From assembly GCA_023653025.1 (NCBI GenBank), contig JAMNXS010000009.1, positions 1 through 60,420 on the forward strand: 60,420 nucleotides of DNA. Reading direction: 5' to 3'. Positions 49,709 through 60,420 of the stretch are shown here, one piece after another. Both the position numbers and the translations under genes were made by a program. The notes under the pieces are model-generated. The model searched no databases. It was given only the letters and a program-made list of their open reading frames with translations, and was not told the DNA's origin. The stretch's first letter is position 1. Each line of letters opens with the position of its first letter. Source of the stretch: Burkholderiaceae bacterium (lineage in GTDB: Bacteria; Pseudomonadota; Gammaproteobacteria; Burkholderiales; Burkholderiaceae_D).

Positions 49709-52372
49709 ATGCAGACAGTGCTTACCCAGCCCAAGCAGACCCCAGGCCCCGGCCATGCCCGTATCGGGCTGCTGTGGGGGCTGGGCTGCGCGCTGGTGGT
49801 CGCGCTGGTCTGGGCGGCGGCCCTGTTCAAGGTCCACACCGACGAGCAGCACCTGATCGAGGAGGCGCTGGTCGATGCCGGTTTCCGCGCCCGCACCTAT
49901 GAAGAGCAGCTGCTGCGTACGGTCACGCAGATCGACCAGCTATCGATGTCGATCAAGTACCAATGGGAGCAGCGCAGCGGCGCGCTCAACCTCGAGGAGC
50001 AGTACGCGCGCGGCGTGTACCCTACCGATCTCTATCCGGTGGCGATCGATGCCGGCGGTTATGCCGTCAGCAGCACGCGCCGGCTGCCGCGCGGCACCTA
50101 CATGGGCGACCTCGACTTCTTCCTGCACCACAAGGCCGCGGGGCGTTCGCAACTGCTGATTTCGCCGCCGACCGAAGGCCGCGGCGGTTTTGCCGGCAGG
50201 CAGATCGTCCGTTTCTCGCGCAGCTTCAACAAGCCCGACGGCAGTTTCGATGGCGTGGTGCTGATCGCCATCGAAGCCGATCGGCTGGCGTCCTTCCACG
50301 ACCTGGCGAAGCTGGCCACCGGCGACTTTGCCGCCGTGCGTTTCGCCGATGGCGCACCGCTGGTGGCACGCGCTGCCGGCGACCTGCCGGCCCGGCTTTT
50401 CCTCGACCGTCCGCGTTTCGACGGCGGCGAGGGCGCGCGCACCGAAGCGGCCGAGGCTTTCATCGACCGCCAGACGCGCATCGTCAGCTGGAAGCGGCTC
50501 GACGGCTACCCGCTGATCGCGGTCGCTGCCGCCGGGATGGCGACGGCGCTGGCGCCGTATGAGGAAACCGAGAACACCTACCTCGGCATCGCCGCGATGG
50601 CGAGCCTGCTGCTGGTAGTCGCAGCAGTGCTCGGCGCCGGCGCGCAGATGCGGCAGCTCGCGCAGCGCCGGCGCCAGGCCGAGGTGCAGTCCACGTTCCG
50701 CCTTGCCGTCGATGGCGCGCGCGAAGCGTTCTACATGATGGTGCCGGTCGTCGACGCCGACGACTGGCTGCTGGAAGACTGCAACGAGCGTGGCGCCGAG
50801 CTGCAGGGCCGCCTGCGCGCCGAGCTGGTGGGCTGTACGCTGTCGCAACTGTACGCCGGTGATGACCTCGAGTCGGTCCTCAGCTTCTGCCAGCGCGTGC
50901 AGCGCAACGGTTTCGTCGAGGAAGAGTTCCATGTCCCGCACGACCGGAATCATGCGGCCGGCTGGTTCCAGCGCCGGGGCGTGCGCTCGGGCATCGGCAT
51001 CGCGGTGACGGTGCGCGACGTGTCCGAGGCGCGCCAGCAGGCGGCGACGCTGGCGGCGATGGCCCGCACCGATGCGCTGACCGGGCTGCCGAACCGGCAC
51101 TGGCTGAACGACTACCTGCCGGGCGCGCTCGATGCCGCGAACCGCGCCTACGGCAAGCTGGCGCTGCTGTACATCGACCTCGACAATTTCAAGAACATCA
51201 ATGACGCACTCGGCCACCGGGTCGGTGACGAAGTGCTGGTCTCGGTCGCGCGCTGCCTCGAGAACACCCTCGGCCAGCGCGGCCGGCTGGCACGCATCGG
51301 CGGCGACGAATTTACCGTGATCGTCGAGAGCGTGGCCGACGGCAGCGAGCCGGCCGCCATCGCCGGGCGGCTGATCGATGCGCTCGGTCGCCTCGGCGCT
51401 GGCACCGACTGGCGCATGTTCAGCCTGCGGGCCTCGATCGGCATCAGCTTGTTTCCGGACGATGCGCATGACGTCGTCGGCCTGCTGCGCGCGGCCGACA
51501 TCGCGATGTACGAGGCCAAGTCGGCGGGCAAGGCGCAGTTCCGGCATTTCGACGAGACCTTCGCGCAGAAGATCCGCGACCGCATCTCGATCGAGCACGA
51601 GCTCGAACTGGCGCTCAAGCATGACGAGTTCATCGTCTACTACCAGCCGCGCGCCGATGCCGGCAGCGGTATCCTGTGTGGGATGGAGGCCCTGATCCGC
51701 TGGCGCCATCCGCAGCGCGGGCTGGTCGGGCCGACCGAATTCATCGGCATCGCCGAACAGACCGGCCTGATCGTGCCCATCGGCGAACTGGTGGTGAAGA
51801 AGGTCTGCGCGCAACTCGCGGCATGGCGCAGCGCCGGCCTCGCGCCGCGGCCGGTATCGGTCAATGTGTCGGCGCTGCAGCTCACCAGCGATCGCTTCCG
51901 CCTGACGCTGGCCGACGAGTTGCAGCGGCACGGGCTGCCGGCCTCGCTGGTCGCCATCGAGCTGACCGAATCGAGCATGCTCGACGACAGCGGCTTCGCA
52001 CAGGGGGAACTGCGCCTGCTGCGCCAGATGGGCATCGAGCTCGAGATCGACGACTTCGGCACTGGCTATTCGTCGCTGTCCAAGCTGCAGAGCCTCGATA
52101 TCGATGTGCTGAAGATCGACCAGTCTTTCGTGCGTAAGCTGGGCGCCGACCGCCAGACCTGGGCGCTGTGCCAGTCGATGGTCTCGGTCGGCCGCGATCT
52201 CGGCATCGCGGTCGTGGCCGAAGGCGTGGAAACCGAGCGCCAGCTGCAGATCCTGCGCGAGATGGGCTGCCACCAGATCCAGGGCTATCTGGTGTCGCCG
52301 CCGGTGCCGCCGGAGAAAATTCCCGCGCTGGTGGCGCGTTCGTTTTTTGCGCCGCTGACGCAGCCGGCCTGA
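49709..52372 (+). CDS. membrane GGDEF-EAL protein (diguanylate cyclase/phosphodiesterase)
   Basis: An 887-residue c-di-GMP enzyme. Membrane helix about 19-41, a periplasmic Cache-type sensor (about 45-285), second helix about 291-312, a PAS-like domain (about 330-440), GGDEF domain (motif RIGGDEF near residue 531) and EAL domain (motif MEALIRWRHP near 660; NVSALQL, IELTESSML, IDDFGTGYSSL). Both catalytic motifs are intact. The RxxD inhibitory site before GGDEF is absent (GQRG instead). It ends 1 base before the convergent mtnA stop. Confidence 0.95.
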   Translation: MQTVLTQPKQTPGPGHARIGLLWGLGCALVVALVWAAALFKVHTDEQHLIEEALVDAGFRARTYEEQLLRTVTQIDQLSMSIKYQWEQRSGALNLEEQYARGVYPTDLYPVAIDAGGYAVSSTRRLPRGTYMGDLDFFLHHKAAGRSQLLISPPTEGRGGFAGRQIVRFSRSFNKPDGSFDGVVLIAIEADRLASFHDLAKLATGDFAAVRFADGAPLVARAAGDLPARLFLDRPRFDGGEGARTEAAEAFIDRQTRIVSWKRLDGYPLIAVAAAGMATALAPYEETENTYLGIAAMASLLLVVAAVLGAGAQMRQLAQRRRQAEVQSTFRLAVDGAREAFYMMVPVVDADDWLLEDCNERGAELQGRLRAELVGCTLSQLYAGDDLESVLSFCQRVQRNGFVEEEFHVPHDRNHAAGWFQRRGVRSGIGIAVTVRDVSEARQQAATLAAMARTDALTGLPNRHWLNDYLPGALDAANRAYGKLALLYIDLDNFKNINDALGHRVGDEVLVSVARCLENTLGQRGRLARIGGDEFTVIVESVADGSEPAAIAGRLIDALGRLGAGTDWRMFSLRASIGISLFPDDAHDVVGLLRAADIAMYEAKSAGKAQFRHFDETFAQKIRDRISIEHELELALKHDEFIVYYQPRADAGSGILCGMEALIRWRHPQRGLVGPTEFIGIAEQTGLIVPIGELVVKKVCAQLAAWRSAGLAPRPVSVNVSALQLTSDRFRLTLADELQRHGLPASLVAIELTESSMLDDSGFAQGELRLLRQMGIELEIDDFGTGYSSLSKLQSLDIDVLKIDQSFVRKLGADRQTWALCQSMVSVGRDLGIAVVAEGVETERQLQILREMGCHQIQGYLVSPPVPPEKIPALVARSFFAPLTQPA

Positions 52373-52373
52373 A

Positions 52374-53459
52374 TCAGTCGTCGAACAGCGCGCGCAGCTT
52401 GTCTTCGTCAGGCGCCTCGACCACGCCTTTCTCGGTAATGAGCGCCGTCACCAGTTCGGCCGGCGTCACGTCGAACGACGGGTTGCGCACCCGCACGCCG
52501 GCCGCCGCCCACTGCGTCTCCCGAAACCCGGTCACTTCCTGCGGCGCGCGCTCCTCGATCGGTATCTCGCGCCCGCTGGGCACCGACAGGTCGATCGTCG
52601 ACAGCGGGCACGCCACATAGAACGGAATCCGGTGCCGGTGCGCCAGCACGGCGACCATGTAGGTGCCGATCTTGTTGGCCACATCGCCGTTGGCCGCCAC
52701 CCGGTCGGTACCGACGATCACGGCGTCGATCTCGCCATGCGCCATCAGGTGGCCGGCCATGTTGTCGGTGATGAGCGTGACCGGTATGTTTTCCTGCACC
52801 ATCTCCCATGCCGTCAGCCGCGCGCCCTGCAGGAAGGGGCGGGTCTCGTCGGCAACCACGCTGATCTTCTTGCCCGCTGCGACCGCCGAGCGGATCACGC
52901 CCAGCGCGGTGCCATGGCCGGCCGTGGCCAGCGCGCCGGCGTTGCAGTGCGTGAGCACGCGCGCGCCATCGGCCAGCAGTTCGGCGCCGTGCTCGCCCAT
53001 CTGGCGGTTGATGCGGATGTCTTCGTTGTGAATCGCTTTCGCCTCGGCCAGCAGGGTCGCGGCGATTGCGGCGGATGATGTGCTGCCTTGCCGTGTGCTG
53101 CCCTGCCGCGCTCGGCAGGCGCGCATGCGCTCGAGTGCCCAAAACAGGTTGACGGCGGTCGGTCGGCTGGCGGCCAGCAGGGCGAAGCCGGCATCCAGCG
53201 CCTCGTCGAAATCTTGTCGCGGCAGCGACTGCAGGCGCAGCGCCTCGACCGCCACGCCATAGGCGGCAGCCACGCCGATGGCCGGCGCGCCGCGCACGAC
53301 CATCGTGCGGATGCCGTCGGCGACGCCTGCCGCCGAGTCATACGGCAGGTATGCGAACACGGCCGGCAGCCGGGTCTGGTCGATCATCTCGAGCCGCCCG
53401 TGGCCGGGCGCGTCGAACCAGCGCAGCGTGACGACTGCGCCTTTGTCGCCGCCGCTCAT
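52374..53459 (-). CDS. mtnA: methylthioribose-1-phosphate isomerase
   Basis: A 361-residue isomerase converting 5-methylthioribose-1-phosphate (or 5-deoxyribose-1-phosphate) to the ribulose form. Typical: MVVRGAPAIGVAAAYGVA (about residues 53-70), LTHCNAGALATAGHGTALG with the active-site Cys, DETRPFLQGARLTAWE, and IVGTDRVAANGDVANKIGTY with the active-site Asp. A short RQGST duplication sits near residue 118. Last gene of mtnP-ald2-apt-mtnA; starts 1 base after the apt stop. Confidence 0.95.
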   Translation of the reverse strand: MSGGDKGAVVTLRWFDAPGHGRLEMIDQTRLPAVFAYLPYDSAAGVADGIRTMVVRGAPAIGVAAAYGVAVEALRLQSLPRQDFDEALDAGFALLAASRPTAVNLFWALERMRACRARQGSTRQGSTSSAAIAATLLAEAKAIHNEDIRINRQMGEHGAELLADGARVLTHCNAGALATAGHGTALGVIRSAVAAGKKISVVADETRPFLQGARLTAWEMVQENIPVTLITDNMAGHLMAHGEIDAVIVGTDRVAANGDVANKIGTYMVAVLAHRHRIPFYVACPLSTIDLSVPSGREIPIEERAPQEVTGFRETQWAAAGVRVRNPSFDVTPAELVTALITEKGVVEAPDEDKLRALFDD

Positions 53460-53460
53460 C

Positions 53461-53991
53461 TCAGTGGCCCTCGAACGCGCACAGCGTGAACACCGACAAC
53501 CCCATCTTCTCCAGCTTCGTGCGGCCGCCCAGGTCGGGCAGGTCGACCACGAACGCGCACTCGACGACCTCGCCGCCCAGACCGCGCACCAGCATCACGG
53601 TCGCCTGCGCGGTGCCGCCGGTGGCCAGCAAGTCGTCGATGACGAGCACGCGGTCGCCGGCATCGATCGCATCGTCATGCATCTCGATGCGGTCGTGGCC
53701 GTACTCGAGCGCGTACTCGTGGCCGGTGGTCTTGCCGGGCAGCTTGCCTTTCTTTCGTACCGGTACGAAGCCCACGCCCAGCGCATAAGCCAGCGGCGCG
53801 CCGAACAGGAAGCCGCGCGCCTCGGTGCCGACCACTTTTGTGATCGGCTGGCCACGATAGCGTTCGACCAGCGCGTCGATGGTGGCCCGGAAGCCAGCCG
53901 CGTCCTTGAGCAGTGTGGTGATGTCGCGGAACTGTATGCCGGGTTTCGGATAGTCGGGAATGGTACGGATCAGCGAGCGGAGGTCAGTCAT
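53461..53991 (-). CDS. apt: adenine phosphoribosyltransferase
   Basis: A 176-residue enzyme that makes AMP from adenine and PRPP. The PRPP-binding loop [15 protein letters not shown] is at about residues 118-132; [15 protein letters not shown] and [18 protein letters not shown] are the usual Apt motifs. In this operon it recovers the adenine released by MtnP. Its start overlaps the aldolase stop by 4 bases. Confidence 0.97.
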
Positions 53992-54637
53992 GTTCTGTGG
54001 GATGCGGCGGCGTTCCTGCCGTAGGTTTTGAATCGTTCGATCACCTGCGCCATCTCGTCAGCCGACAGCAGCGTCGGTCGGCCGACCTGGCGCGCGAGCA
54101 GGTATTGCTGGCACAGCGCTTCGATCTCGACGGCAATTGCCATCGCCTCGTCGAGGTCGCGGCCGAGCGTGATCATGCCATGGTTTGCCAGCAGGCAGGC
54201 CTTGCGGTCGGCCAGCGCGGCGACCGCATGCTGCGACAGCTGCTCGGTGCCGAACAGCGCATACGGCGCGCAGCGCACCGAGTCGCCGCCGGCGACCGAG
54301 ATCATGTAGTGAAACGGCGGTATGTTCTCGCGCAGGCAGGCCAGCGCGGTCGCATGCGGCGAGTGCGTGTGAACCACCGCATTGATTTCCGGCCGCGCCT
54401 TCAGGATGTCGCAGTGGAAGTGCCATTCGCTCGACGGCTTGCCGATGCCGATCACCTTGCCGTCGAAGCCGACGGAGACAATCTTCGACGGCGTGATCTC
54501 CTCGACCGGCACGCCGGTCGGCGTGATCAGGAAATGATGGTTCTCGCGGCAGCTGACATTGCCCGAGGTGCCGCGGTTCAGGCCGCTGCTCTCGAGCTTC
54601 TTGCAGGCGGCGACGATCTGTTCGCGGATCAGGGCGC

Positions 54638-54641
<4 letters not shown>
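53988..54641 (-). CDS. class II aldolase (Ald2-type, probable 5-methylthioribulose-1-phosphate aldolase)
   Basis: A 217-residue zinc aldolase of the FucA family. Catalytic Glu72 (PSSEWHFH) and zinc ligands His91, His93 (VVHTHSPHA) and His154 (ANHGMI) match fuculose-phosphate aldolase residues 73, 92, 94 and 155 with a constant one-residue offset. Between mtnP and apt-mtnA it is best read as the aldolase of the DHAP shunt, cleaving methylthioribulose- or 5-deoxyribulose-1-phosphate to DHAP and an aldehyde. Distinguishing it from the related dehydratase MtnB rests on the intact aldolase Glu and on absence of other methionine-salvage genes. Confidence 0.85.
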
Positions 54642-55525
<884 letters not shown>

Positions 55526-55591
55526 GGAGTGTCCGTCAGGTGCATGATAAGGCTTCCACTCTACCAAAGAAATCCGGCGCTACCATCGGGC

Positions 55592-55966
55592 TTACTCCGC
55601 GCAGGCCATCTCCATGCTCACCTCGCCCAGCGTCTCGGGCGCAACCGGACGCCATTCGCCATTGACCGCGCGCGAGAACACAACGTCGCCTTCGGTCATG
55701 TCGCGCGTGTGGCCCGACAGGTGGACGATGCGGTAGCGGCGCGACTGGCAGTCGTACTCGGTGCGGCTGCGCAGCGAGACCACGCCGCTGGCATCGGCCA
55801 CCGTGTTGTTGTCCACCTCCCAGACGCGCACGAGATGGCCGCTGCGGTCGATGGTCTCGCGGTCGATATACCGCTCATATCCTTCGCCGCCATCGACGAA
55901 AGTCCAGGCCGCGCCGGCAGGCACGCCGAAGGCCAGCAGCGGGATGGCAAGAAGCCAGGTTTTCAT
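55592..55966 (-). CDS. small secreted protein (surface-adhesin-E-like fold)
   Basis: A 124-residue exported protein: signal peptide LLAIPLLAFGVPAGA, then WTFVDGGEGYERYIDRETIDRSG and LRSRTEYDCQSRRYRIVHLSG. The pattern of a YxDxxTI strand, a RTEYDC strand and a final Cys (MEMACAE) is that of small surface-adhesin-E-like proteins common in betaproteobacteria. GGGAGAC lies before ATG 55966. Function unknown; monocistronic. Confidence 0.7.
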   Translation of the reverse strand: MKTWLLAIPLLAFGVPAGAAWTFVDGGEGYERYIDRETIDRSGHLVRVWEVDNNTVADASGVVSLRSRTEYDCQSRRYRIVHLSGHTRDMTEGDVVFSRAVNGEWRPVAPETLGEVSMEMACAE

Positions 55967-56209
55967 TGTCGTCTCCCAGGGTAAGCACATTGCGAAAATA
56001 GCAATACTGACCAGGGGAAATGCTGATGAATGTCAATTTTTTGAACCGCTGAACGCGTGTCGTCGCCATGTCATGTTTTACCAAAAGTAACCTTGCCTTA
56101 AAGATATAATCGCGATCGAAGATTTCTGCTAACCGAACATCGAGCCGAACATCGTGATCGGCTGTCCCTTCCGGCGACCCGCCGGTGGCACTCGGAGGAG
56201 CGCGGCATT

Positions 56210-56779
56210 GTGAAGACGACCGGGCAGCGCAAACGGGCCCCGCGGCGGGCGACCGCCGCCATGGCCATCGTGCTGGCGTTGTGCGCAGCAGCCACCTTGT
56301 CGTTCGCCAACGACGAGGCGAGGCGTCCGTCCGCGGCCGGCGATCCGGCCTCGCTGAAGGCAGCCTACCTGTACAACTTCGCGCTCTACACCACGTGGCC
56401 GATCGGTCAGGCCGCCAGCGTCGCACTGTGCTCCTACGGCCGCGACGACCTCGGCGTTGCGCTCGATGCGCTGGCCGGCCGGCAGATCGACGGCAAGCCG
56501 GTGCAGGCGCGGCGCATTGACAGCGTCAATGAGGCGAAGTCCTGCCATCTGCTGTACGTGTCCGAGGGCGCCGCCGGCAGCCTTGCCCCGGTGGCGCGGG
56601 CGCTGCAGGCCTGGCCGGTGCTGGTGGTCAGCGATGCGGTGGGCGCGGCCGAGCATGCGATGATCCAGATCGAGCCCGACGGCAACCGCCTCGCGTTTGC
56701 GGTGAACCTGCCGCGCGTGCGCTCGGCCGGCCTTGACCTCAGCGCCAAGCTGCTGCGGCTTGCGAGGAGCGTGCGATGA
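56210..56779 (+). CDS. YfiR/DUF4154 family periplasmic protein
   Basis: A 189-residue exported protein. Signal about residues 15-33 (AMAIVLALCAAATLSFA), then the YfiR-family domain: SLKAAYLYNFALYTTWP, CSYGRDDLGVALDALAGRQIDGKPV and LVVSDAVG...IQIEPDGNRLAFAVNLPRVRSAGL. In Pseudomonas YfiR holds the cyclase YfiN inactive from the periplasm. Here too the next gene is a membrane GGDEF protein, with a 4-base overlap. GTG 56210 has GGAGGAG upstream. A TATAAT (56105-56110) lies about 100 bases before, with a poor -35. Confidence 0.88.
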   Translation: MKTTGQRKRAPRRATAAMAIVLALCAAATLSFANDEARRPSAAGDPASLKAAYLYNFALYTTWPIGQAASVALCSYGRDDLGVALDALAGRQIDGKPVQARRIDSVNEAKSCHLLYVSEGAAGSLAPVARALQAWPVLVVSDAVGAAEHAMIQIEPDGNRLAFAVNLPRVRSAGLDLSAKLLRLARSVR

Positions 56780-58809
56780 GACTGCGGCGCCTGCTCAACC
56801 GTTTCGTCGACCTCAGCCTCGGCCGCAAGCTGGGCATGACGAATGCCGCCGGCCTGCTGCTGGCCGGCGTGCTGATCTGCGTGGCGCTGGGTGCCGCGTC
56901 GTGGGCGACGCTGCGCAGCGACCTGATGCGCACCAGTCAGATCGTCAGCAGCGTGCTGGCGCAACATGTCGCGCCGGCGATCCAGTTCGAAGACCCGATC
57001 AGTGCCAGCGAACTGCTGTCGGCACTGTCCGTCCATCGCGAGTTTGTCGAAGCCGTGCTTTACCGGGCCGATGGCGAACTGTTTGCGCGCTACCGCCGGA
57101 CAGCGGATCCGTCGCTGCCCGGCCCGAGCGCAACGCCGGACGACGGGGCACGCATGGTCGTCAGCGTGCCGGTCGAGGCGCAGGGGCAGGTCATTGGCGA
57201 GCTGCGCGTGGCGGTCGATATGCAGTACGCCTATCGCCGCGTCCTGCTGGCCGTGGCGGCCATCTTGCTGGTCGTGCTGCTGGTGCTGGGCGCGGTGCTG
57301 CTGCTGCAGATGCGGCTGGTCGCGCGCGTGCTGGCGCCGGTGCAGTCGCTGCTGGCCGGCATGCGCCGCGCCGGCGACGAAGCGGACTACAGCCAGCGCG
57401 TGCCGGTCGCCGGCCGCGACGAAATCGGCGAGCTCGGCGCCAGCTTCAATGCGATGATGGAACTGGTCGAGGAGCGCGACCGCGCGATGGAGCATCTCGC
57501 GATGCACGACTCGCTGACCGGTCTCGTCAATCGCCACTACCTGCGCATGCGCGCCCGCCTGCCGGACGCCGATGAAGGCCGGCGTGCGGCGCTGTTCTAC
57601 ATCGACCTCGACAACTTCAAGGCCATCAACGACACCATCGGCCACAATTTCGGCGACCGGGTGCTGGCCGCCGTTGCCAACCGACTGATGTCGCTGCTCG
57701 GCGACGGCGATATGCTGGCGCGGTTCGGTGGCGACGAGTTCGTCCTCTGCACCAGCTTGGCGGACGGCGAGGATCCGGTCGTGCGCGCCGAGCAGCTGCG
57801 CCGCGCCATCGGCGCGCCGCTGCAGTTGCAGAAGCGCGAGCTGTTGCTGCGGGCATCGGTCGGCATCGCGCTCGCGCCGGACCACGGCAGCACCGTCAGC
57901 GAACTACTGCAGAAGGCCGACGCGGCGATGCATGTGGCCAAGGACAACGGGCGCGACAGCGTGCAGTGCTGGAACGCCGCGATTACCCAGCGCGCCAACC
58001 AGCGTTTTGCGCTCGAGACCGAATTGCGGCAGGCCATGCAGGCCGGGCAGCTGGTCATTGCCTACCAGCCCATCGTCGCGCTGGCCAGCGGCCGTGTGAC
58101 CGGCATGGAAGCGCTGCTGCGTTGGCATCATCCGGAGCGCGGCCCGGTGTCGCCGGCCGAGTTCATTCCGGTGGCCGAGGAGAGCGGGCTGATAACGGAA
58201 CTCGGCGCCTGGGTGCTCGAGCGCGCCTGCATCCAGGTGCGCAACTGGCATGCGCAATACGGGCCGCTGCACCTGGCCGTGAACGTGTCGGGCCGGCAGT
58301 TCCGCGACCCGGCCCTGGTCGATACCGTGCGTGCTGCCTGCGAGGCCTGCGGGTTCCCGACGGATCTGCTGCATCTGGAGGTGACGGAAAGCACGCTGAT
58401 GCACGACACCGAGGCGGCCGCGCGCGTGATGCGGCAGCTGGTCGGTCTCGGGCTCAAGCTCTCGCTCGACGACTTCGGCACCGGCTATTCGTCGCTGGCT
58501 TACCTGAAGCGCTTCCCGCTGCACAAGCTCAAGATCGACCGCAGTTTCGTCAAGGACCTGCCGCACAACGCCGACGACGGCGCGATCGTGAAAGCCATCG
58601 TCAACCTCGCGCGCGCGCTAGACATGCTCGTGCTGGCCGAGGGCATTGAGTCCGAGAAGCAGCACCTCGTGCTGGGCGCACTCGGCTGCGACTTTGGCCA
58701 GGGCTATTTCTACAGCAAGGCCCTCGAGCCGAAAGAGTTCGAGCAGTTCATGGCGCAGCGGCATCGCGAGCCACAGCGCTCGGAAGACGACCCGCCGGCC
58801 CGCTACTGA
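56776..58809 (+). CDS. YfiN-like membrane GGDEF-EAL protein
   Basis: A 677-residue c-di-GMP enzyme. Helix about 24-46, periplasmic CHASE8-like domain (about 47-155), helix about 156-179, HAMP (about 180-232), GGDEF domain (RFGGDEF near 316-322) and EAL domain (MEALLRWHHP near 444; NVSGRQF, TESTLM, LDDFGTGYSSL). Both motifs intact; the RxxD inhibitory site is not complete (GDGD). The front half matches YfiN/TpbB, but YfiN has no EAL domain, so net output may switch between synthesis and breakdown. Partner of the YfiR-type protein; 40 bases before the PYP-like gene. Confidence 0.93.
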   Translation: MRLRRLLNRFVDLSLGRKLGMTNAAGLLLAGVLICVALGAASWATLRSDLMRTSQIVSSVLAQHVAPAIQFEDPISASELLSALSVHREFVEAVLYRADGELFARYRRTADPSLPGPSATPDDGARMVVSVPVEAQGQVIGELRVAVDMQYAYRRVLLAVAAILLVVLLVLGAVLLLQMRLVARVLAPVQSLLAGMRRAGDEADYSQRVPVAGRDEIGELGASFNAMMELVEERDRAMEHLAMHDSLTGLVNRHYLRMRARLPDADEGRRAALFYIDLDNFKAINDTIGHNFGDRVLAAVANRLMSLLGDGDMLARFGGDEFVLCTSLADGEDPVVRAEQLRRAIGAPLQLQKRELLLRASVGIALAPDHGSTVSELLQKADAAMHVAKDNGRDSVQCWNAAITQRANQRFALETELRQAMQAGQLVIAYQPIVALASGRVTGMEALLRWHHPERGPVSPAEFIPVAEESGLITELGAWVLERACIQVRNWHAQYGPLHLAVNVSGRQFRDPALVDTVRAACEACGFPTDLLHLEVTESTLMHDTEAAARVMRQLVGLGLKLSLDDFGTGYSSLAYLKRFPLHKLKIDRSFVKDLPHNADDGAIVKAIVNLARALDMLVLAEGIESEKQHLVLGALGCDFGQGYFYSKALEPKEFEQFMAQRHREPQRSEDDPPARY

Positions 58810-58849
58810 CGACGTACACATTTTGCCATCCATCTCCAGACCCGAGCCC

Positions 58850-59239
58850 ATGCCCGAGACCTTCGACGCCCCCCAGCTGCTCGCGCAGCTCCTGTCCGCC
58901 ACCGACGAGTCCCTCGACCAGTTGTCGTTCGGCGTGATCGCTATCGATGCGCAGGGCCGCGTGACCCGCTACAACCGCTACGAATCGCAGCTGTCCGGCC
59001 TGTCGCCGGAGCGCGTCAAGGGCAAGCACCTGTTCACCGGCGTGGCGCCGTGCATGAACAATCCGCTGATCTCCGGCCTGATCCGCGAGGCGCGCGAGGC
59101 CGGCGATGCACTCGACGAGACGATCGATTACGTGCTGGCCTTTCGCATTCGGCCGGTCGCCGTCAAGCTGCGCATGCTCTGCGAGCCCGGCGTGGACGGC
59201 TGCTATCTCGTAATCCGGCGCGCCGACGAGGCCGCATGA
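58850..59239 (+). CDS. photoactive yellow protein-like PAS protein
   Basis: A 129-residue single PAS domain, collinear over its length with Halorhodospira PYP (125 residues). Key chromophore-site residues are kept with a one-residue offset: Tyr41 (PYP Tyr42) and Glu45 (PYP Glu46) in RYNRYESQLSG, and Cys68 (PYP Cys69) in GVAPCMNNP. PYP Thr50 is Ser49 here and Arg52 is Leu51. PYP binds p-coumaric acid through Cys69 and senses blue light; whether this protein does is not known. ATG 58850 is the first good start; ribosome-binding site weak. Its stop overlaps the next PAS gene by 4 bases. Confidence 0.85.
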   Translation: MPETFDAPQLLAQLLSATDESLDQLSFGVIAIDAQGRVTRYNRYESQLSGLSPERVKGKHLFTGVAPCMNNPLISGLIREAREAGDALDETIDYVLAFRIRPVAVKLRMLCEPGVDGCYLVIRRADEAA

Positions 59240-59613
59240 CGACCGACCCTTCCCGCGCCGTTGCCGAACTCGAGGAACTGACCGAGTTCCTGTACTTGAT
59301 TCCGGTCGGCATCGCGCAAATCGATGCCGCCGGTAAGGTCGGCTTCATCAATCCGCTGGCGGTCCAGCTGCTGATGCCGATCGTGACGCCGGGCGACGAC
59401 TTGTCGAACCTGTTCGATGCCCTGCACGAACTGGCGCTCGACCTGCGGCAGATCGTGCGCGACTTCAAGGGCGAGCAGGGCAGCATCGTGAGGGACTATC
59501 GGATTGCGGTTCCGGCCGGCGGCGCGAAGCGACCGGAAGCCAGCGTCTATGCGATATCGCTGGTCAAGCTCGACCAGGCGCGCATCATGGTGGCGCTGCA
59601 AACGGTTTCCTGA
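59236..59613 (+). CDS. small PAS-like protein coupled to the PYP-like gene
   Basis: A 125-residue protein with a PAS-like start (LYLIPVGIAQIDAAGKVGFINPLAVQLLMP, about residues 18-47), a helical centre (LSNLFDALHELALDLRQIVRDF) and two closing strands (ASVYAISLVKL, ARIMVALQTVS). No output domain and no conserved Cys. Translational coupling to the PYP-like gene suggests the two proteins work together, possibly as partners. Last gene of the yfiR-like operon. Confidence 0.75.
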   Translation: MTTDPSRAVAELEELTEFLYLIPVGIAQIDAAGKVGFINPLAVQLLMPIVTPGDDLSNLFDALHELALDLRQIVRDFKGEQGSIVRDYRIAVPAGGAKRPEASVYAISLVKLDQARIMVALQTVS

Positions 59614-59830
59614 GCGGGGTGGTGCGGCAGGTCAGCGCGGCGGTCTTGGGAGGGATGCTTGAGCCTGCGCGGTGAGGGCAGCTGCTCGGGGACAGGAGGC
59701 GCGTGCGCGCCCCGGGTGTTGAGGTGGGGTGACCGATGGGACGCCTCGCCAATTTCCCCAAAACCCTTTGAAATCTTTGAGATTCAAGGATATCTAGTCC
59801 CGACTGTACCCAAAAATTGTACCCAAATCG
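59614..59830. other. junction between core genome and integrated element
   Basis: 217 bases without a gene. From about 59757 base use becomes AT-rich (CCCTTTGAAATCTTTGAGATT). Two copies of TGTACCCAAA (59805-59814, 59818-59827) lie directly before the integrase start; they may be integrase-binding or attachment-site sequences. Confidence 0.5.
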
Positions 59831-60272
59831 ATGGCTCGCCCTAATCAAGATCGCCGGAAGAACCTAAAGCTGCGCGGGTCAATGTGGTATCTGAACCTGC
59901 CGATACCAACGGACATCCGTCATCTTTTTTTGTCGTCCAAAGGGGTGCCACGCTCTCATATTGTGGAAGCGCTGCACACATCTGACTTGGCGGAAGCCGA
60001 CTATCGGAAGAAGCGCCGCATCGCAGGTTGGGAGCGGGAATTCAGGATCGCTCGCAGCACGGCAGCAGGGGTGCTTGCGAGTGAGTTCGACCGGGCACGA
60101 GTTTACCGCGAGGACTTTAAGCATATCCAATTGAAAGGAACCGAAGCAGACCACGACGGCTGGCTAGACGGCGTGTTTGCCGAAGCTGAGCGAATCACCG
60201 GAGGTCACGACAAAGAAACCCCTGAATCGCTGGAGAGAGCAAGGGATTTTGTCAGGGCCGCTGAGGGTAAGT
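59831..60272 (+). pseudogene. phage/island integrase, amino-terminal fragment cut by an IS
   Basis: About 147 residues of the amino-terminal part of a tyrosine recombinase with the DUF6538-type start (LRGSMWYLNLPIPTDIRHLF, about residues 14-33) and an Arg/Glu-rich helical core-binding region. The catalytic domain is missing: at 60273 the sequence passes into an IS3-family end and the frame ends artificially at 60355. Lower GC than the rest of the window, so recently acquired. Confidence 0.8.
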
Positions 60273-60420
60273 TGGACTACCCCCGATATTTGGACAGTCG
60301 CCAGCCTCACGCTGAGGCACGCTCAAAGGCCTCGGGGCTGACGTCACCGAGATGACTGTGACGCCGGGTTCGATTGTAAAACGCTTCGATGTAATCAAAG
60401 AGGTCGGCCTTGGCCAAGTC
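60273..60420 (-). mobile_element. IS3-family insertion sequence, one end (continues past window)
   Basis: The terminal repeat reads TGGACTACCCCCGATATTTG on the plus strand from 60273, followed by GACAG, the style of IS3-family (IS150/IS2-like) ends. The transposase gene reads outward on the minus strand and runs off the window. The exact boundary is judged from the TGGACT start and could be off by a few bases. Confidence 0.75.
60307..60420 (-). CDS. IS3-family transposase OrfB, carboxy-terminal end (partial)
   Basis: Only the last 37 residues are in the window. They read DYIEAFYNRTRRHSHLGDVS then PEAFERASA and a TGA stop at 60307-60309. The YIExFYNRxRRHSxLGxxSP pattern is the end of the DDE integrase domain of IS3-family OrfB proteins. 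Confidence 0.9.
   Translation of the reverse strand, partial: DLAKADLFDYIEAFYNRTRRHSHLGDVSPEAFERASA

Follow-up and report, generated by a model that had tools for sequence, protein, structure and literature searches.

A clade-C photoactive yellow protein relative and a free-standing candidate partner domain encoded beside cyclic di-GMP genes in a Burkholderiaceae bacterium

Photoactive yellow protein (PYP) is a bacterial blue-light sensor. A gene for a protein of this family was found near one end of contig JAMNXS010000009.1 from a Burkholderiaceae bacterium (assembly GCA_023653025.1). This stretch of 60,420 nucleotides, analysed as a whole and referred to below as the window, is one entire contig of a 2.89-Mb draft genome consisting of 126 contigs and 95.8% complete. 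Four genes follow each other on the plus strand. The first (56210..56779) has a GTG start and encodes a YfiR-like periplasmic protein of 189 amino acids with a match to the Pfam family DUF4154 (YfiR/HmsC-like, 130.6 bits). It overlaps by four bases with a gene (56776..58809) for a membrane-type protein of 677 amino acids, in which the Pfam domains CHASE8, HAMP, GGDEF and EAL all scored above their cut-offs and the GGDEF and EAL motifs are present. After a gap of 40 bases comes the gene of the PYP-family protein (58850..59239, 129 amino acids), which overlaps in the sequence ATGA with the last gene (59236..59613). The product of the latter, 125 amino acids long and without an output domain, is homologous to the N-terminal domain of the proteins that follow PYP in related loci, and is called here the PYP-partner domain (PPD) protein. 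The strand, the overlaps, the gap and the length of the PYP-like protein are all as described in the first-pass annotation, an earlier reading of the same DNA. In all four genes the GC content by codon position is gene-like (0.83-0.90 at third positions).

Profile comparisons place the 129-residue protein firmly in the PYP family. The PYP model TIGR02373 matched it with 88.4 bits (E 3.8e-25), well ahead of the next PAS family (PAS_4, E 1.5e-8), and the best match among solved structures in the PDB was the PYP domain of Ppr (E 2.2e-19), with further solved PYPs also matched. The score remained under the equivalog cut-off of TIGR02373 (143 bits). According to Xing, Gumerov and Zhulin (2022, PMC9664959) this model recovers only about 20% of PYP homologs, so that the missed cut-off denies equivalog status but not membership of the family. 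Tyr41, Glu45 and Cys68 align to PYP Tyr42, Glu46 and Cys69, and the canonical Thr50 and Arg52 are replaced by Ser and Leu, in agreement with the first-pass annotation. The window protein thus has the length, fold family and chromophore triad of canonical PYP from Halorhodospira halophila, from which it differs in its lower TIGR02373 score, in the two substitutions and in having no adjacent pcl and tal genes.

Xing and coworkers (PMC9664959) defined a clade C of the PYP family, composed mostly of Burkholderiales proteins, none of them characterised, which often adjoin GGDEF genes and whose signature is the loss of Phe92, Phe96 and Trp119 together with a conserved Met100. We used this name for a group that we matched to theirs by features and taxa. 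A midpoint-rooted tree was calculated from 97 rows, 87 of clade C and 10 of canonical and Ppr-type PYPs. The clade-C rows included 80 chosen as the best of 147 relatives; these had been detected by two peptide patterns, of which one includes Cys69 and neither includes Tyr42 or Glu46. Six loci repeating named contigs (L034, L035, L037, L038, L040 and L041) and A_L194, which showed a profile mismatch, were left out. Clade C separated from the 10 other rows with support 100/99, and the window PYP was sister to the remaining 86 clade-C rows with support 99/92. Its membership of the clade is thereby well supported. Its position as the deepest clade-C branch is provisional because the root is a midpoint root and the tree program warned of few columns, of long branches that meet and of a long branch for the window protein.

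The residues of clade C agree with this placement. Cys69 is present in all 87 rows, and Tyr42, Glu46 and the complete triad in 86 each. The sole exception, L043 in genome G183, comes from a frameshifted gene that adjoins an intact gene for a PPD-kinase protein; it has His at position 42 and Ala at position 46. At the positions of Phe92, Phe96 and Trp119 the window PYP has Ile, Leu and Tyr, i.e. the loss that marks the clade. The first-pass annotation proposed that the changes at positions 50 and 52 would tune or alter the chromophore site. A local tuning had to be given up, since Leu52 is near-universal in clade C (86 of 87 rows) and Thr50 is rare there (Ala in 81 rows, Ser in 4, Thr in 2). 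Three clade-C PYPs (L199, L200 and L202) are annotated as 'phosphonate transporter' in public records, a misnaming of PYPs already remarked in PMC9664959.

The protein encoded after PYP was labelled a second PAS protein in the first-pass annotation, and this label did not hold. The window PPD had no match in Pfam or NCBIfam at E 0.1, and none of 27 PPD members (the window protein and 26 diverse relatives) matched any Pfam model at E 0.01 or any NCBIfam model. When profiles were compared with those of true PAS domains, PPD obtained 2% probability and PYP 93.8%; the comparison of PPD with PYP gave 0.3%. An ordinary PAS domain and a second PYP were both rejected on these values. A PAS-like motif is visible near the start of PPD, and a PAS fold is unproven.

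What is conserved after PYP is the PPD itself. In 79 of the 80 related loci it is the N-terminal domain of the protein encoded directly 3' of PYP on that strand; the remaining locus, L055, is cut off by its contig end 152 bases further. According to our own domain searches the 79 first partners comprise 60 PPD-PAS-GGDEF proteins, 13 PPD-GGDEF-EAL proteins (three with a further GGDEF domain), one PPD-kinase, three PPD-PAS proteins without GGDEF (one of them, L088, cut by a contig end) and two consisting of PPD only (L113 and L119, although Pfam also reports a PAS domain for L119). Seven positions are invariant in PPD, and the window protein keeps them all. No mention of a partner domain shared by clade C was found in the literature searched, which covered accessible main texts, and it may be in print elsewhere; clade C and its proximity to GGDEF genes are already published.

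The association also holds at the level of whole genomes. Among 399 genomes of the order, TIGR02373 (at E 1e-6) was found in 14 and the PPD profile, built from PPDs beside PYP and scored on at most 11 candidates per genome, in 11. The PPD search brought no new genomes, and its 11 are exactly those with a clade-C PYP match. The other three TIGR02373 genomes were G145, with PYP-like genes of another group, and two with weak generic PAS matches; G044 and G209 (about 30 bits, in frames of more than 1000 amino acids) and G145 had been left out before counting. The genes of G145 lie outside clade C: four PYP-like genes, two each of two types, stand within about 3.5 kb with a p-coumarate-ligase-like gene between them (L032, G145:C1:133875-137373). 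A Synechococcus control match seen at E 0.001 vanished at 1e-6. The chance figure for the overlap of PPD and clade-C PYP is 1e-21, which ignores kinship and is not a probability of independent events. Across 398 genomes of the phylum PPD occurred in two, both with a clade-C PYP; TIGR02373 matched at 1e-10 in five, and the three without PPD had the match inside frames of 900-910 amino acids. Plasmids were searched with the PPD of L067 and the PYP of the window. Eleven records carried PPD, all of them among the 13 with PYP, Alphaproteobacteria included, and in nine the PPD lay 28-50 nucleotides 3' of PYP by the printed coordinates. In the Caballeronia M1242 plasmid both genes after PYP carry PPD, and in that of Indioceanicola profundi (L201) canonical pyp, pcl and an aromatic lyase gene precede a clade-C-like PYP that overlaps a PPD-PAS-GGDEF gene. 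This genome context makes PPD a candidate receptor of clade-C PYP.

Of the known genes for supplying a p-coumarate chromophore, none was found in the draft genome of the host. Tyrosine ammonia lyase and 4-coumarate ligase, whose presence the first-pass annotation proposed to check, were both missing: the draft genome has no match to the aromatic ammonia-lyase family PF00221 and no dedicated p-coumarate ligase, TIGR02372 matching only fragments of other acyl-coenzyme A (CoA) ligases with at most 56 bits. Eight ligase loci of the host were classified, and one encodes a benzoate-CoA ligase family protein (749 bits, cut-off 375), a possible activator of scavenged p-coumarate. The search was extended to 57 genomes, namely 12 with clade-C PYP, G145, and those of 44 of the 80 loci. 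PF00221 was absent in eight (G000, G011, G049, G183, G273, G303, G412 and Schlegelella koreensis G438), of which G183 and G412 are only 64-68% complete. TIGR02372 matched at E 1e-40 in at least 32 of the 57, only the first 27 candidates having been scored in some genomes; it exceeded its cut-off in two and reached E 1e-40 in none of the eight without lyase.

In many relatives the ligase, and in some a lyase, is encoded close at hand. A ligase is encoded near PYP in at least 33 of the 80 loci and a lyase resembling tyrosine ammonia lyase in at least six, both lower bounds due to contig ends; in two of the six (L117 and L123) a second PYP, of canonical type, lies in the same cluster. When two of the many lyases from other genomes were classified, one was a HutH over its cut-off; the Methyloversatilis lyase beside PYP scored best with the tyrosine ammonia-lyase model, below its cut-off. 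The gene that follows PPD-GGDEF on plasmids bears the annotation 4-coumarate-CoA ligase (Rhizobium) or AMP-binding protein. A clade-wide loss of the chromophore was rejected because ligase and lyase genes adjoin PYP in these relatives. Judging by these neighbourhoods, clade C as a whole looks like a group of p-coumarate photoreceptors, with a subset, the window copy included, that lacks a known supply.

For this subset a sensor free of p-coumarate deserves consideration, in which Cys68 would carry another acyl group or respond to redox or thiol conditions and PPD would read its state. The eight genomes, host included, that have neither PF00221 nor TIGR02372 at E 1e-40 speak for it, as does the redox sensing proposed for some PYPs lacking Cys69 (PMC9664959). 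We nevertheless regard it as unlikely: the window protein and 86 of the 87 rows retain the two residues that hold the phenolate, Tyr42 and Glu46, of which a plain thiol sensor would need neither, and the chromophore may be scavenged. Tyrosine ammonia lyase was present in 7 of 113 operons, and uptake was suggested for some bacteria, by Dohmen et al. 2025 (PMC12826048).

The free-standing state of the window PPD raises another alternative, that PYP and PPD are what is left of a larger module whose GGDEF part and chromophore genes were lost, with little function now. Of 21 genomes from the host genus only two have PYP, a sporadic presence that fits horizontal transfer or repeated loss; in G011, of the same genus, PPD is fused to PAS-GGDEF; and the frameshifted PYP of G183 has lost two residues of the triad. 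An integrase-type open reading frame lies about 220 bases downstream of PPD as well. On the other hand, both window genes are open, overlap and have gene-like codon use, neither the triad nor any of the seven invariant positions of PPD has been lost, and first partners lacking an output domain occur also in L057, L061, L113 and L119. With these points on both sides, we give decay only a small probability.

The downstream open reading frame (59831-60355) matches Pfam DUF6538, a domain usual at the start of phage-type integrases, and ends after 174 amino acids close to the contig end; a GTACCC-type repeated sequence immediately precedes it. Truncation of the PPD gene by this element was considered and rejected, although the contig end at 60420 makes the rejection less than complete. 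The draft genome yielded no close PPD-linked PAS-GGDEF piece: the search for a detached one returned two matches of 30% and 28% identity, which we took for ordinary PAS proteins. The 217 bases past the PPD stop, analysed in one frame, lacked the codon pattern of a gene.

YfiR and YfiN form a pair of periplasmic repressor and diguanylate cyclase. The two upstream genes resemble that pair in that a DUF4154 protein gene overlaps a CHASE8-HAMP-GGDEF gene beside it; they differ in that the window enzyme has an extra EAL domain and that equivalog cut-offs were missed. The scores for NF053586, NF053591 and NF007423 were 33.3, 100 and 238 against cut-offs of 85, 125 and 325, which leaves the YfiR-like protein below both NCBIfam YfiR models and the GGDEF-EAL protein below the YfiN equivalog. 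The first-pass annotation saw in the four genes one module, with YfiR and PYP as two inputs to a single GGDEF-EAL enzyme. The genes share a strand, only 40 bases separate the enzyme from PYP, a consensus scan of 55900-60420 revealed no promoter-like or same-strand terminator-like site, and a PPD without output domain needs an enzyme in trans. The four genes are not found together in relatives, however, which is a condition that the first-pass annotation had named as refuting its proposal and which applies here to two of the genes: neither YfiR nor the N-terminal 235 residues of the enzyme were detected at E 1e-3 in any of the 80 related loci (some of them cut by contig ends), and YfiR was also absent from the 14 regions L031-L044, which partly overlap the 80. 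The link of these two genes to PYP looks local to the window, and the four-gene module is an improbable reading, although slightly less so than decay or a sensor for another ligand. From the earlier proposal of a PYP input to cyclic di-GMP (c-di-GMP), a messenger of biofilm signalling, the connection of the clade to c-di-GMP enzymes stands, while the coupling to YfiR and to the adjacent enzyme is not supported.

By position only, the enzyme at 56776..58809 is a possible output. Another possible target in trans is a second large protein of 887 amino acids (49709-52372), about 4 kb upstream, in which GGDEF and EAL motifs were seen by eye. Between the two lie minus-strand genes (52374-55567) which, named by eye from their translations, resemble methionine salvage genes (MtnA, an aldolase and MTA phosphorylase) and an adenine phosphoribosyltransferase gene. 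A tRNA scan found nothing near the four genes.

Taken together, PYP and PPD most likely act as sensor and receptor in the control of c-di-GMP. In the scheme that we favour, PYP would carry a p-coumaroyl thioester on Cys68 and change its shape in blue light; PPD would dock on PYP, read its state and pass the signal to c-di-GMP enzymes. In most relatives the signal would stay within one chain, PPD being fused to PAS-GGDEF or GGDEF-EAL. The PPD of the window is free, therefore the signal would have to reach another protein, for which the GGDEF-EAL enzyme encoded 40 bases upstream is the nearest candidate. Because the known p-coumarate genes are missing from the genome, we propose scavenging of the chromophore, with a general aromatic CoA ligase to activate it. 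As a whole, this scheme seems to us marginally closer to right than wrong. For clade C as a group, the case for a light input to c-di-GMP is good; in the window copy light sensing is plausible, but the lack of chromophore genes makes it less so. The arrangement has a parallel in Ppr and Ppd (PMC9664959), in which PYP likewise feeds a kinase or a c-di-GMP enzyme; there it is fused in one chain with phytochrome and kinase or GGDEF-EAL, whereas in the window PYP and the partner domain are separate proteins.

Several observations besides the lack of lyase and ligase weigh against this scheme. Position 100 is Ile in the window PYP and Met in 85 of the 87 clade-C rows. The window PPD stands alone. 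Two of 22 PPD places, both in G183, lie away from the PYP cluster, and as the PPD profile derives from PYP-adjacent copies, diverged PPDs elsewhere may escape it. Two plasmid records have PYP without PPD. In that of Niveispirillum, which has no gene table, the match is partial; in that of Comamonadaceae OTU4NAUVB1 (L199) a clade-C-like PYP faces a CheB-CheR-PAS-kinase-receiver protein, possibly another type of PYP partner, near a BLUF protein. With clade C the window copy shares the Burkholderiales-centred branch, the triad, the loss of Phe92, Phe96 and Trp119 and the proximity to GGDEF; what sets it apart is its position as the deepest branch in our tree, Ile100, the free-standing PPD and a genome without lyase or dedicated ligase.

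A wider interpretation, which we offer only tentatively and think more doubtful than the scheme above, would make PPD the dedicated receptor of clade-C PYP, swapped among cyclases, phosphodiesterases and kinases. In the window it would be detached and act in trans, forming an AND gate on c-di-GMP that requires blue light together with p-coumarate, a plant phenolic, from the environment.

PMC9664959 and PMC12826048 both point to a gap in knowledge of how the signal leaves single-domain PYPs, and the former also cites studies in which neighbouring signalling proteins bind PYP. Occurring with one PYP clade, located directly downstream of PYP and placed before varied output domains, PPD is a concrete candidate for the receptor, and the window offers it as a free protein of 125 amino acids, which would suit binding tests. 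Those clade-C genomes that lack both lyase and ligase raise the question where, or whether, their PYPs obtain a chromophore. If the wider interpretation is true, one light sensor would drive cyclases, phosphodiesterases and kinases through swapping of the PPD domain, and the sensor of the window would respond only when environmental p-coumarate and blue light coincide.

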